Below are positions 26,192 through 38,281 of a stretch of DNA of 64,000 bases, one piece after another; the first letter of the stretch is position 1; every line of letters starts with the position of its first letter. The translations under genes and the position numbers were made by a program. The notes beneath the pieces are model-generated. The model worked only from the letters and a program-made list of their open reading frames with translations, was not told the DNA's origin and made no database searches. Where the stretch lies: positions 2,463,501-2,527,500 of the forward strand of contig NC_017956.1 of assembly GCF_000264455.2 (NCBI RefSeq), in the 5' to 3' direction. This DNA is from Tistrella mobilis KA081020-065. Lineage in GTDB: Bacteria; Pseudomonadota; Alphaproteobacteria; Tistrellales; Tistrellaceae.

Positions 26192-26213
26192 TTTGCCATC
26201 GTGGTAAGGTCAA
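26192..26213 (-). promoter_or_regulatory. CueR-type promoter of the copZ-pco operon
   Basis: On the minus strand, TTGACC (26213-26208) is followed by a CTTAC-N7-GCAAA imperfect dyad, the geometry of CueR/MerR promoters. It lies 40 bases before copZ and back-to-back with the ATPase promoter. Confidence 0.7.
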
Positions 26214-26241
26214 GCCCCGAAGTCACGGCATCGATTAGCCC

Positions 26242-26272
26242 TTGACCTTCCCATCGTTGGAAGCCCCACATC
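26242..26272 (+). promoter_or_regulatory. CueR-type promoter of the copper ATPase operon
   Basis: TTGACC at 26242-26247, then perfect dyad arms CTTCC (26247-26251) and GGAAG (26259-26263). A CACATC element 19 bases after the -35 is the candidate -10. The core is nearly identical to the known E. coli copA operator. It lies 34 bases before the ATPase start. Confidence 0.8.
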
Positions 26273-26305
26273 GGGTCCAAAGCCCCAATGAAGGGAGTGG
26301 AAACG

Positions 26306-28864
26306 ATGGCTTCCGTGGTTGCGCTTCGGCGCGAGAATGATCCTCCGGCGCCCTCGGGCGGCACGCTCAGCGTCCGCATCGAGGGGATGACTTGCGCCTC
26401 CTGCGTCGGGCGCGTCGAGAAGGCCTTGAAGGCGCTGCCCGGCGTGACGCGCGCCGCCGTGAACCTCGCGACCGAACGCGCCGAGGTGGCGTTCGCCGGC
26501 GAGCCCGATCCGGCAGCCGTGGCCCGCGCGGTCGAGGATGTCGGCTATTCGGTGGGCGAGGAGACGACCGAACTCTCGATCGAGGGGATGACCTGCGCCT
26601 CGTGCGTCGGGCGGGTCGAGAAGGCGCTCGTCCGCGTCCCGGGCGTGGTGAGCGCCTCGGTCAATCTCGCGACCGAGAAGGCCCAGGTCCGGCATCTCGC
26701 CGGCGCGGTCTCCACGGGCGATCTCGTCGCGGCCGTCCGCTCGACGGGCTACGAGGCGCGTGCGGTGGCGTCCGACGCTCCCTCCGACCAGGAGGCGGAG
26801 CGGCGCGAGCGCGAGATGGGCTCGCTGCGCCGGGCGCTCCTCATCGCGGCCGCGCTCACCCTGCCGGTGTTCGTGCTCGAGATGGGCTCGCACCTGATCC
26901 CGGCCGTGCATGACTGGGTGATGACCAATATCGGCCACCGCGAGAGCTGGTATCTCCAGTTCGCGCTAACCACGCTCGTGCTGTTCGGGCCGGGCCTGCG
27001 CTTCTTCCAGAAGGGTGTGCCGGCGCTCCTGCGCGGGGCCCCCGACATGAACTCGCTGGTCGCGCTCGGCACCAGCGCCGCCTGGGGCTACTCGGTGGTG
27101 GCGACCTTCGCCTCCGGGCTGCTGCCCGAAGGCACGCAGAACGTCTACTACGAGGCCGCGGCCGTCATCGTTACGCTGATCCTTCTCGGCCGCTATCTCG
27201 AAGCGCGCGCCAAGGGCCGCACGTCGGAAGCCATCAAGCGCCTCATGGGGCTGCAGGCCAAGACCGCCCGCGTCCTGCGTGACGGCGAGGCCGTTGAGGT
27301 GCCGCTCGCCGACGTGCAGGCCGGCGACCTCGTCCAGGTGCGTCCTGGCGAGCGCGTGCCTGTGGACGGCGAGGTGATTGAGGGCACGTCCTACGTGGAC
27401 GAATCGATGATCACCGGCGAGCCCGTGCCCGTGCACAAGGCGGCGGGCGCTGAAGTCGTCGGCGGCACGATCAACAAGACGGGCGCTTTCACCTTCCGTG
27501 CCACGAAGGTGGGCGCGGACACCGTGCTCGCCCAGATCATCCGCATGGTCGAGCAGGCGCAAGGGTCGAAGCTGCCGATCCAGGCGCTGGTGGACAAGGT
27601 CACCTCCGTCTTCGTGCCGATCGTGATGGGCGTGGCGGCGCTAACCTTCGGGATCTGGCTCGTCTTCGGGCCGGCGCCGGCGCTCACCTTCGCGCTGGTG
27701 AACGCGGTGGCCGTGCTCATCATCGCCTGCCCCTGCGCGATGGGGCTCGCCACGCCGACCTCCATCATGGTCGGCACCGGGCGCGCGGCCGAGATGGGCG
27801 TGCTGTTCCGCAAGGGCGAAGCCTTGCAGACGCTGCGCGGTGCCAAGGTGGTCGCGCTCGACAAGACCGGCACGCTCACCAAGGGCCGTCCGGAGCTCAC
27901 CGACTTCGTCCCGGCCCCAGGCTTCGCGACGGAGGAGGTTCTCGGCCTCGTCGCCGCCGTCGAGACCCGCTCGGAGCACCCGATCGCCGAGGCGATCGTC
28001 GAGGCCGCCCGCAAGCGGGGCCTCAAGCTCGGGGCGGTCGAGAGCTTCGACGCGGTGCCCGGCTTCGGGGTCGCCGCGACGGTCCAGGGCCGCAAGGTCG
28101 AGGTCGGAGCCGATCGCTACATGAAGAAGCTCGGCTACGACGTCGCCGACCTGCTGCCTGCGGCCAAGCGGCTGGCGGTCGAGGGCAAGAGCCCGCTCTA
28201 TGCGGCCGTGGACGGCAGGCTCGCCGCAGTGATCGCGGTCGCGGACCCGATCAAGCCGACGACGCCCGAGGCGATCCAGGCCCTGCACGCGCTCGGCCTC
28301 AAGGTCGCGATGATCACCGGCGACAACGCGGGGACCGCGCAGGCCATCGCCAGACAGCTCGGCATCGACGAGGTCGTGGCCGAGGTCCTCCCCGACGGCA
28401 AGGTCGAGGCGCTCAAGGGTCTGCGGCAACGGCTCGGCAGCGTCGCCTTCGTGGGCGACGGCATCAACGACGCCCCGGCGCTCGCCGAGGCCGACGTGGG
28501 CCTCGCCATCGGCACAGGCACGGACGTGGCGATCGAGTCGGCCGACGTGGTGCTGATGTCGGGCGACCTGCGGGGCGTCCCCAACGCAATTGCGCTCTCC
28601 CAGGCGACCATCCGGAACATCAAGCAGAACCTGTTCTGGGCCTTCGCTTACAACACGGTGCTGATCCCCGTGGCGGCGGGCGCGCTCTACCCCGCCTACG
28701 GCGTCCTGCTCTCGCCCGTGTTCGCGGCCGCCGCGATGGCGCTTTCCAGCGTCTTCGTGCTCGGCAACGCGCTTCGGCTGAAGGGCTTCCGGCCGCCGAT
28801 GGCGGCCGAGACGTCCGCGCCTGACCGCGCGACGGGCCGACCCGCGTTGGCGCCCGCCGAATGA
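26306..28864 (+). CDS. copA: Cu+-exporting P1B-type ATPase
   Basis: A protein of about 852 residues. Two N-terminal HMA domains each carry GMTCASC (near residues 28-33 and 95-100). Eight membrane helices follow, with CPC in [14 protein letters not shown] (around 475), phosphorylation motif DKTGTLTKG (around 519), SEHPIAEAI, and hinge [20 protein letters not shown]. It exports Cu+ from the cytosol. The ATG at 26306 has GGGAG at good spacing; an earlier in-frame ATG at 26288 lacks one. It is the first gene of the plus-strand operon with glutaredoxin, ferredoxin-reductase, cueR and an MFS gene. Confidence 0.95.
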
Positions 28865-28926
28865 CGGCCGGCCCGGGCCGCGACGAGGGCCCGGGTCAGC
28901 CCAAGACGAAACGCAAGGAGGCCGAC

Positions 28927-36839: not shown

Positions 36840-38101
36840 CGGCGCGCCTCCTGGGAGGCCACGTTGGCCGCGTGGCCGGACGGCGCCGTGCCGGGCGCCA
36901 TCGAGGTCGGGCGAGGCGCGACCTGCATGCCGGGACGCACCAGCCCCTTGACGATGATGGTCTCGCCGGGAGCAAGGCCGCTCGTGACGACGCGCAGGCC
37001 GTCGATCACCGGCCCGAGCTCGACCGGGCGATACTCGGCCTTGTTGTCCGCTCCCAGCACCAGCACGTAGCGCCGGCCCTGGTCGGCGCCGACGGCCTGA
37101 TCGTCGATGAGCACCGTCTGGCGCGACGCATCGGTCACGAGCTTCACCCGCGCGAACAGGCCCGGCGTGAGCCGCCCGTCCGGATTCGGAACGACGGCGC
37201 GGGCGCGCACCGTGCCGGTGCTGCGATCGACGCGGTTGCCGAGGAAATCGAGCACGCCCGCGTGCGGGAAGCCGTTATCGGTCATGAGACTGACCCGGAC
37301 GGGCAGCCGGACCGTGGCGCGGCCGCTGCTGTCGGGGCGAGCCTTTGCCACGAAGTCGAGGTAGGTTGCCTCGTCGATGTCGAAGTAGACGTGGACGGGA
37401 TCGATGGAGACGATGGTCGTGAGCACGGTCGCCGCGCCGGCGCCGCCGCCGGCGACAAGATTGCCTTCGGTCACCAAGGCCCGATCGACCCGGCCGGCGA
37501 TCGGGGCCGTGACACGGGAATAGGAGAGATCGAGCCGGGCCGCCGCGACCGCGGCCTTCGCCGCTTGCACCTGCGCCTGCCGCTCGCGCCGCTTGGCCAG
37601 CGCGTCGTCGTAGCTCTTGCGGGAAATCGTGCCGTTGGGCACGAGCTTCTCCGCCCTCTCGAAGTCGGCTTCGGCCTGGGCGAGCAGCACTTCGGCCTGG
37701 CGGAGCTGCGCTTCGGCCGTCTCGACCGCCACCTGGAACGGGCGCGGGTCGATCTGGAACAGGAGCTGGCCCTCCCGGACCAGCCCGCCCTCCGGAACGC
37801 TCACCGCCTCGATCGCTCCGCCCACGCGCGGCCGAAGCTCCACGCTCCTCGTCGCGGCCACGAAGCCTGTGAACTCGGCGGAGGGTGCGATCTCGCGCGT
37901 GACCACCTCGGCCACCGGAACCTGCGGCGCCGGGGGCGCAGCGGCCGGTTCGGTGGGCGCGCCGCCTGCATCTTCTCCGGACCAGGCAAGCGCGAGGACG
38001 CGATCGGCGTAGGGCGCCACCTCCTCGCGGTAGGCCACGGCGAGGCCGGCGGCGGCGGTGACGGCGGTCGCCAAGAGGACGGCTGCGGCTCTGCGTGCCA
38101 T
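36836..38101 (-). CDS. RND periplasmic adaptor (HlyD/MFP family)
   Basis: A protein of about 421 residues with an N-terminal membrane anchor (RRAAAVLLATAVTAAAGLA), a lipoyl half-motif VELRPRVGGAIEAVSVPEG, a coiled-coil hairpin (about 135-190) and a second half-motif VTAPIAGRVDRALVTEGNLV. It links the RND pump to an outer-membrane channel; no channel gene is seen nearby. The ATG at 38101 is preferred, with GAAGGTG upstream; a GTG at 38110 is possible. It is the first gene of the operon behind a CueR-type promoter. Confidence 0.88.
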   Translation of the reverse strand: MARRAAAVLLATAVTAAAGLAVAYREEVAPYADRVLALAWSGEDAGGAPTEPAAAPPAPQVPVAEVVTREIAPSAEFTGFVAATRSVELRPRVGGAIEAVSVPEGGLVREGQLLFQIDPRPFQVAVETAEAQLRQAEVLLAQAEADFERAEKLVPNGTISRKSYDDALAKRRERQAQVQAAKAAVAAARLDLSYSRVTAPIAGRVDRALVTEGNLVAGGGAGAATVLTTIVSIDPVHVYFDIDEATYLDFVAKARPDSSGRATVRLPVRVSLMTDNGFPHAGVLDFLGNRVDRSTGTVRARAVVPNPDGRLTPGLFARVKLVTDASRQTVLIDDQAVGADQGRRYVLVLGADNKAEYRPVELGPVIDGLRVVTSGLAPGETIIVKGLVRPGMQVAPRPTSMAPGTAPSGHAANVASQEARR

Positions 38102-38175
38102 GGCATTCACCTTCGGTGCGTCGCAGCGCTCGGACTCCTGAGCGCGGTTTCAGCGGCGTTTGTCGTGAAGGTGGT

Positions 38176-38198
38176 CTTTCCAACGATGGGAAGGTCAA
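38176..38198 (-). promoter_or_regulatory. CueR-type promoter of the HlyD-RND-CDF operon
   Basis: On the minus strand TTGACC (38198-38193) runs into the dyad CTTCC-N7-GGAAA. The 16-base core TTGACCTTCCCATCGT is identical to that of the ATPase promoter at 26242. It lies about 80 bases before the HlyD gene. Confidence 0.75.
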
Positions 38199-38250
38199 GA
38201 GCCCACGCGGAGCCCGGAAACCTCCCTCCCGGACGAGGATCGGCGGCCTG

Positions 38251-38281
38251 TTGACCTTGTCACGCTGGCAAGCCGCAGCGT
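38251..38281 (+). promoter_or_regulatory. CueR-type promoter of the LysR gene
   Basis: TTGACC (38251-38256) followed by CTTGT-N7-GCAAG (38256-38272), one mismatch in the dyad. A CAGCGT candidate -10 lies 19 bases after the -35. It lies 31 bases before the LysR gene start and faces away from the promoter at 38198. Confidence 0.65.

Follow-up and report, generated by a model that had tools for sequence, protein, structure and literature searches.

Why should a gene for a LysR-type regulator stand behind a promoter of the kind that serves copper resistance genes? The question is raised by a copper gene cluster of the alphaproteobacterium Tistrella mobilis KA081020-065, which lies in a window of 64,000 nt (contig NC_017956.1, positions 2,463,501 to 2,527,500, forward strand). 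Positions below are those of the whole window, whilst C1 coordinates are those of the genome's own contig. Here we analyse five promoters of the cluster that carry the signature of the copper sensor CueR. Overall, we propose that a CueR regulon is carried as cargo by an integrative conjugative element (ICE) and that LysR1, the regulator in question, would be raised by copper and would promote excision or transfer of the element; taken as a whole, we regard this proposal as evenly poised.

A first-pass annotation of this DNA had placed five sites, each TTGACC plus a dyad, in the cluster, and all five were read from the sequence at the positions and on the strands it gave. They are listed as 31-mers counted from the -35, and each contains an exact genome-wide match to the 27-mer TTGACCTTNNCANNNTNGNAANNNNCA:

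26213-26183 (-), CueR-type promoter 1, copZ unit: CTTAC-CACGATG-GCAAA, -10 CAGTTG
26242-26272 (+), CueR-type promoter 2, copA-grx-reductase-cueR unit: CTTCC-CATCGTT-GGAAG, -10 CACATC
32668-32638 (-), CueR-type promoter 3, DUF305 gene: CTTGC-CAGCGTT-GCAAG, -10 CACGGT
38198-38168 (-), CueR-type promoter 4, adaptor-RND-dmeF unit: CTTCC-CATCGTT-GGAAA, -10 CACCTT
38251-38281 (+), CueR-type promoter 5, lysR: CTTGT-CACGCTG-GCAAG, -10 CAGCGT

All five have TTGACC, a 19-nt spacer and a dyad between the -35 and the -10. The dyads had been described as being of CTTCC/GGAAG type; a MerR-type dyad is present throughout, but the perfect arms occur in site 2 only, the others being looser (CTTAC/GCAAA in site 1, CTTGC/GCAAG in 3, CTTCC/GGAAA in 4 and CTTGT/GCAAG in 5). 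As had also been said, CA stands at the -10, as its first two bases, 19 bases after the -35 in every site. This is common elsewhere: in a set of 80 contigs encoding CueR, 85 of the 149 gene-assigned sites have CA and 52 have TA. Open frames and profile searches place each site upstream of a different unit, giving five distinct units. Site 5 begins 61 nt upstream of the lysR ATG, and the unit behind it is lysR, not a metal gene.

The sites are rare in the window and in the genome. With the pattern TTGACCTTNC-N7-GNAAG, which is near the literature CueR signal and does not require the CA at the -10, six window matches were found at up to two mismatches, namely the five sites and a two-mismatch match within copA; shuffles of the window gave a mean of 0.48 matches and none of 100 reached six. 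Across the 6.5-Mb genome, TTGACCTTNNCANNNTNGNAANNNNCA gave 25 matches at up to three mismatches compared with 7 for a reversed-pattern control. Five of these had no mismatch (the five sites), one had one, three had two and 16 had three, the site of a second, core copA (copA2) being among the last. Since TTGACCTTNNCANNNTNGNAANNNNCA was derived from the five, their exact matches follow by construction, and what counts is that other close matches are almost absent. This genome scan, which the first-pass annotation had proposed as a check, revealed no unrelated intergenic copies of the motif at zero or one mismatch. The sole one-mismatch match is site 6 (C1:2428083-2428109, -), which is on the same element, 62 kb away from the closest of the five; it faces a gene for a glutaredoxin-domain membrane protein, with a divergent MerR-family gene beside it. 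A broader 22-mer at up to one mismatch matched 10 places genome-wide (2 for its control). These were the five sites and site 6, three other places and a canonical site (C1:1944340-1944361) upstream of another copA-cueR pair. Moreover, among 142 relatives, the genome itself included, the 27-mer matched at up to one mismatch in 22 and the control in 3. CueR-type operators are found near metal genes and are not scattered through the genome, the exceptions being lysR and the gene behind site 6. A strict CTTCC-N7-GGAAG scan of the genome returned 41 places (3 for the reversed control); of the seven sites it recovered only two, site 2 and the core site, and it gave way to patterns that contain the -35.

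Which regulator reads these sites? The annotation had located cueR within one of the units, and CueR1 is indeed encoded behind site 2:

30269..30766 (+), CueR1: TIGR02044 189.8 bits vs cut-off 147.4; recognition triplet AKM; C-x7-C loop

The Cu(I)-binding loop reads CQGDDRPDC. The second, core copA-cueR pair (C1:1941532-1944416) has an HmrR-type operator with the spacer AGCGACT, and its CueR2, whose triplet is PKT, scores 146.3 bits on TIGR02044, just below the cut-off. The core copA2 operator is identical over the 22-mer in a same-species and a same-genus genome. In the sections of PMC1526738 used here, the CueR signal is given as ACCTTCCC-(5)-TGGAAGGT and the HmrR signal as ACCTTCCAG-(3)-CTGGAAGG; excerpts of PMC5045206 describe M at a position of the CueR recognition helix as pairing with A and T at certain spacer bases, whose numbering we mapped onto the present sites. 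The 80 CueR contigs are all M-type, as expected because one search peptide contained the M. Between them they contain 167 sites when up to one mismatch is allowed, and four contigs have none. A at spacer position 2 together with T at position 6 was found in 151 of these 167 sites. A further 20 stretches were taken from the best rows of another search. Two of them (L256 and L264) were dropped as their helix was not recognised, one (L266) proved M-type with one A/T site, and the 17 with T, S or L CueRs held 14 sites, none with A/T and 8 with G/C. In T. mobilis the code is A/T in all six ICE sites and G/C in the core site. Therefore, the operators on the ICE and those of the core copper system probably follow separate codes, and the core copA-cueR pair is probably a copper regulon of its own.

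That the five sites form a single CueR regulon is highly probable, given the TIGR02044 score, the pairing of AKM with the A/T code in all five and the recurrence of target kinds in the same-genus genome. The earlier claim of one copper regulon across the metal cluster is thus supported as far as the single regulon goes, and falls short in that the unit at site 5 has no metal gene. We infer both copper induction and CueR binding from these features. Site 6, the second CueR with its own site, the mobile-element setting and the non-metal nature of the unit at site 5 had all been passed over in the first-pass annotation.

Divergent from site 6, 35 kb to the left of the window, is a CueR paralog (L114:8357-8836, equal to C1:2428357-2428836, +). 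In alignment it carries the recognition residues SAKMIRYYE, as in CueR1, and lacks the copper-binding cysteine pair; it could act as a metal-blind competitor at CueR operators. A plasmid search at 1e-8, with 615 matches in 72,556 records, revealed no clear family of such Cys-less paralogs; the listed 25 share 38-47% identity, and the annotated records among them are mostly called cueR.

All six CueR-type sites lie on one ICE, an insert of 87,191 bp inside radC. Its edges were set by comparison with two genomes, a same-species draft (G142; 60 contigs, 100% complete by tool figure) and a same-genus genome (G001), because both carry an intact radC. Each has a contiguous radC; its match to the right flank starts at window position 39918, and its match to the left flank stops at C1:2416237. 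The flanks overlap by 11 bp, and CACAACCACCC is repeated at both ICE ends within radC:

39918..39928, attR core, 11-bp direct repeat in radC: left copy C1:2416227-2416237; from the empty-site comparison with two genomes

The insertion falls at the codons of the VHNHP motif of radC, so that the gene is split between the two ends. GC content along the window showed no clear island edge, and a search for a tRNA found none. Just inside the left end is a gene for a tyrosine integrase (int), and the element further encodes TrbI, a DUF2274 protein, TraG, a DUF3363 relaxase candidate, RepA, ParB and ArdC. We refer to it as of the alpha sub-type, Tn4371-related, a name borrowed from PMC11448139 and not based on phylogeny. 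To judge by these boundaries, the five-site cluster is cargo of the ICE. Without the element, G142 serves as a natural control for site distribution, and there the 22-mer at up to one mismatch finds the core copA2 site and one chance-like match only.

At the right end of the element, two genes follow promoter 5:

38312..39217 (+), LysR1, LysR-type regulator: PF00126/PF03466
39558..39806 (+), small HTH_17 protein, candidate excisionase (xis-like): PF12728 29.6 bits vs cut-off 27

LysR1 is 72-73% identical to a second regulator of the same ICE, LysR2 (C1:2435212-2436087), which is convergent beside trbI-DUF2274, and the two are sisters in a tree with support of 100/100; deeper forks of the LysR tree are weakly supported. 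A sample of 385 genomes of the class yielded 18 LysR matches at 1e-60 or better, spread over 13 genomes; 15 of these matches are convergent beside DUF2274-trbI, the exceptions being LysR1, L140 and L196. Where sampled, then, this LysR family is mostly a gene at the edge of the transfer module. No description of the role of a LysR convergent with DUF2274-trbI was found in the literature searched. The HTH_17 gene lies 340 bp behind LysR1 on the same strand, with the attachment site beyond, and is a candidate xis by its fold and place. From the coordinates, lysR1, the HTH gene, attP and int would follow one another on one strand in the circular form.

We therefore envisage a circuit of the following kind. 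Under excess cytoplasmic copper (or silver or gold), Cu(I)-CueR would distort the long 19-bp spacer and switch on copZ-multicopper oxidase, copA-cueR, the DUF305 gene, the MexEF-type pump with DmeF, and lysR, the same copper signal raising LysR1 via site 5. LysR1, like TraR of Tn4371 ICEs, would promote excision and/or transfer, most directly by acting via the adjacent xis-like gene, in line before int in the circular form. The two halves of the circuit differ in strength: induction of lysR by copper through CueR is very likely, whilst an action of LysR1 on excision or transfer has, by analogy, somewhat less than an even chance.

The analogy is with TraR, a LysR regulator that the portions of PMC11448139 used here place in the cargo operon of ICEKKS102Tn4677, co-transcribed with the bph cargo. 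Overexpression of TraR raised xis 80-fold and traG 3-fold, and both excision and transfer were raised (PMC11448139). Shared features would be a LysR at the border of cargo and transfer genes, expression that follows the cargo and an effect on xis. The likeness in co-expression is one of gene order, that is, a CueR-type site before lysR (window and G001) and an operon-like order (L104/L106). In contrast to TraR, the LysR kin here stand at the trbI-DUF2274 end and LysR1 by the xis-like gene, and the place of the bph promoter is taken by promoters of copper type. The LysR here, which occupies the opposite end of the mpf block, may fill a TraR-like role. A closer parallel in metal is pcoA2-lysR of ICE1_IHMA in Pseudomonas paraeruginosa, where, in the excerpts of PMC11195947, lysR is co-induced with the copper cargo; there the CusRS two-component system and one long transcript are involved, whereas here the promoters are of CueR type.

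Wiring of this kind recurs in other elements. In G001 the copper cluster sits on an element elsewhere in the genome, with CueR-type sites preceding adaptor-RND, glutaredoxin-reductase, copZ-DUF305, copA-cueR and a trbI-adjacent LysR; four of the five target kinds (copZ, copA, RND adaptor and lysR) are shared with the window. The LysR of G001 is distant from LysR1 in the tree, so its CueR promoter was probably gained separately. A single inherited CueR promoter for the two was considered and ruled out, as the genes are not sisters. Two sphingomonad elements (L104 and L108) have a CueR-type site followed by adaptor, RND, outer membrane efflux protein (OEP) and lysR genes, lysR then facing DUF2274-trbI, and the OEP stop overlaps the lysR start (gene ends read in L104). 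These two come from different families and are 99.97% identical across 18.2 kb, a sign of recent transfer. In L106 the CueR-type site precedes an adaptor-OEP fusion and then lysR. In this in-frame fusion (L106:17135-18316) the RND adaptor continues into the OEP, apparently because the permease gene was deleted. L112 may be a further case: there copZ has a one-mismatch site and is followed on its strand, with long gaps, by a MerR gene, then a DUF326 gene and then lysR.

Several observations weigh against the proposed circuit. The xis-like call rests on a weak HTH_17 match, and LysR1 now stands at the right ICE end, away from the trb end. According to the sections of PMC11448139 used here, traR is missing from its Tn4371 place in alpha-type ICEs, and in excerpts of PMC13393423 copper raised excision of ICEclc-like elements in some hosts with no rise in transfer, which cautions against equating the two. 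The LysR of G001 is only 37% identical to LysR1, lies in a different part of the tree and is not its sister, so that no one conserved promoter exists. In L081 a trb-linked lysR lies near a copper cluster without CueR wiring. A site directly before the LysR homologue was found in none of the 10 CueR contigs that hold one, nor, at up to three mismatches in about 500 bp upstream, in any of 12 plasmid homologues examined (of 93 matching records). Of the 16 other class-level LysR loci, 15 have no site in 400 bp and one (L196) has a weak three-mismatch match. A convincing CueR-type site is thus confined to two of the 18 class-level loci, LysR1 and G001. The notion of a general CueR site at LysR homologues of copper clusters failed in the CueR contigs, the plasmids and the class-level loci alike.

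The alternative that survives best, which we hold to be unlikely but by no means negligible, is an ordinary metal and drug efflux circuit in which CueR-driven LysR1 regulates the divergent MexEF-type pump or other copper genes, its trb kinship being mere ancestry. MexT regulates mexEF in this way, and the genes for LysR1 and the adaptor run divergently, their CueR sites back to back. Moreover, in 4 of the 12 plasmid loci (rhizobial near-copies) the LysR homologue is in a copper cluster beside DUF305-copZ and copA-cueR, with no trb in a 12-kb view. However, the CueR-sited LysR of G001 is next to trbI and some 24 kb away from the pump, the class-level homologues mostly adjoin DUF2274-trbI, and LysR1 has its nearest relative in the trb-linked LysR of its own ICE.

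Alternatively, site 5 may be real or nearly so and have no consequence, lysR being a hitch-hiking boundary gene wired by chance cargo insertion. The absence of the site from most LysR homologues examined agrees with this, and since copper clusters and lysR are both found at cargo/trb borders, chance proximity is to be expected. We nevertheless think this explanation improbable. The wiring appears directed on different LysR lineages, by an own promoter twice and by an overlapping operon in two sphingomonad elements; moreover, G001 has only 4 exact 27-mer sites in 6.3 Mb, and one of them falls some 100 bp or less from the one strong LysR homologue of that genome, for which a rough estimate puts chance in the order of 1e-4. 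That another regulator mainly reads the five sites, be it core CueR2 (a second CueR is at hand), the Cys-less paralog near site 6 with its shared recognition residues, or a gold- or silver-tuned GolS-like sensor, is very improbable, given the PKT triplet and AGCGACT spacer of the core system, the absence of the A/T code from all 14 sites near T/S/L-type CueRs, the missing cysteine pair, without which the paralog should not sense copper alone, and the encoding of CueR1 behind site 2.

The copper-sensor arm, the proposed input to LysR1, would control the following further genes if operon extents are taken from gene spacing:

20862..21374 (-), DUF305 protein (a), last gene shown of the copZ unit: PF03713 47.9 bits; start codon chosen manually
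21341..21856 (-), small membrane protein, open frame; presumably DUF4396-like
21956..23098 (-), outer membrane protein candidate, open frame, start codon chosen manually; presumably CopB-like
23116..24936 (-), CopA-type multicopper oxidase: TIGR01480 816.8 bits vs cut-off 479
25022..25921 (-), copZ-unit protein, family unassigned: no Pfam/NCBIfam match at 0.001
25937..26152 (-), CopZ-like copper chaperone (HMA domain): PF00403 48.5 bits
26306..28864 (+), CopA copper-exporting P-type ATPase: TIGR01511 615 bits vs cut-off 397
28927..29193 (+), glutaredoxin-like protein: PF00462
29208..30242 (+), 2Fe-2S/FAD/NAD oxidoreductase (ferredoxin-type reductase): PF00111, PF00970, PF00175
30828..32033 (+), MFS transporter downstream of cueR: PF07690
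32341..32607 (-), DUF305 protein (b): PF03713 68.2 bits
32710..33672 (-), DmeF-type CDF (Co/Ni) exporter: NF033827 477 bits vs cut-off 250
33669..36839 (-), RND permease, multidrug (MexF/OqxB-like) class: NF000282 1490/1250 bits
36836..38110 (-), RND periplasmic adaptor (MexE-like): TIGR01730 276.8/94.9 bits

The unit of site 1 runs from copZ through the unassigned protein and the multicopper oxidase to the two open frames and DUF305; that of site 2 comprises copA, glutaredoxin, the ferredoxin-type reductase, cueR and the MFS gene; that of site 4 holds the MexE-like adaptor, the MexF/OqxB-class RND permease and DmeF. The permease falls below the CusA/CzcA cut-off (TIGR00914 362/701 bits). As dmeF overlaps the end of the RND gene, it probably shares the copper-type promoter, a possible crossover between Co/Ni and copper. 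In the set of 80 CueR contigs, sites of CueR type (at up to one mismatch) lie before copA in 73 of the 78 that have a copA homologue; the corresponding figures are 52 of 61 for copZ and 17 of 26 for the RND adaptor. The stretch from ArdC to the copper genes (window 16956-20841) encodes a TIR-domain protein and a SIR2-like/STALD protein, and the two frames that come next look TIR-like by eye, which makes it a candidate cargo for anti-phage defence.

In itself, the CueR regulon is of an ordinary, known kind, with a MexEF-type pump as in Pseudomonas. Like the proteobacterial CueR/HmrR regulons in the parts of PMC1526738 used here, it has a dyad in a 19-bp spacer and units that contain copA and cueR; it differs in that both signal types occur in one genome, with CueR1 on the ICE and CueR2 on the core chromosome, and in that its targets include dmeF, DUF305 and lysR. 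Excerpts of PMC7922089 and PMC12833586 describe mexPQ-opmE of P. aeruginosa as a CueR-driven multidrug-type RND pump, and the two regulons share five operators per genome, one of them driving a pump of this class. Here, by comparison, the pump unit has no outer-membrane gene, dmeF follows the pump, a CueR-sited lysR is paired with it and the whole is on a mobile element.

What goes beyond this, as far as gene arrangement tells, is a copper-sensor promoter before a LysR gene linked to a mobile element, an arrangement that other elements have reached by different routes. No publication on a link between CueR, LysR and ICE transfer was found in the literature searched, subscription journals being mostly outside that search. 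We suggest tentatively, as a fair possibility that falls short of a probability, that copper ICEs of alphaproteobacteria have repeatedly and independently put a transfer-associated LysR under CueR, with its own promoter or as the last gene of a pump operon, such that copper would open defence and mobility together. Separately from this, T. mobilis probably holds two CueR regulons whose operator codes differ. If the proposal is true, copper would directly switch on a mobility regulator via a dedicated metal sensor, not via general stress, and the recently described coupling of ICE transfer to cargo use would extend from biphenyl to copper and to another type of ICE.

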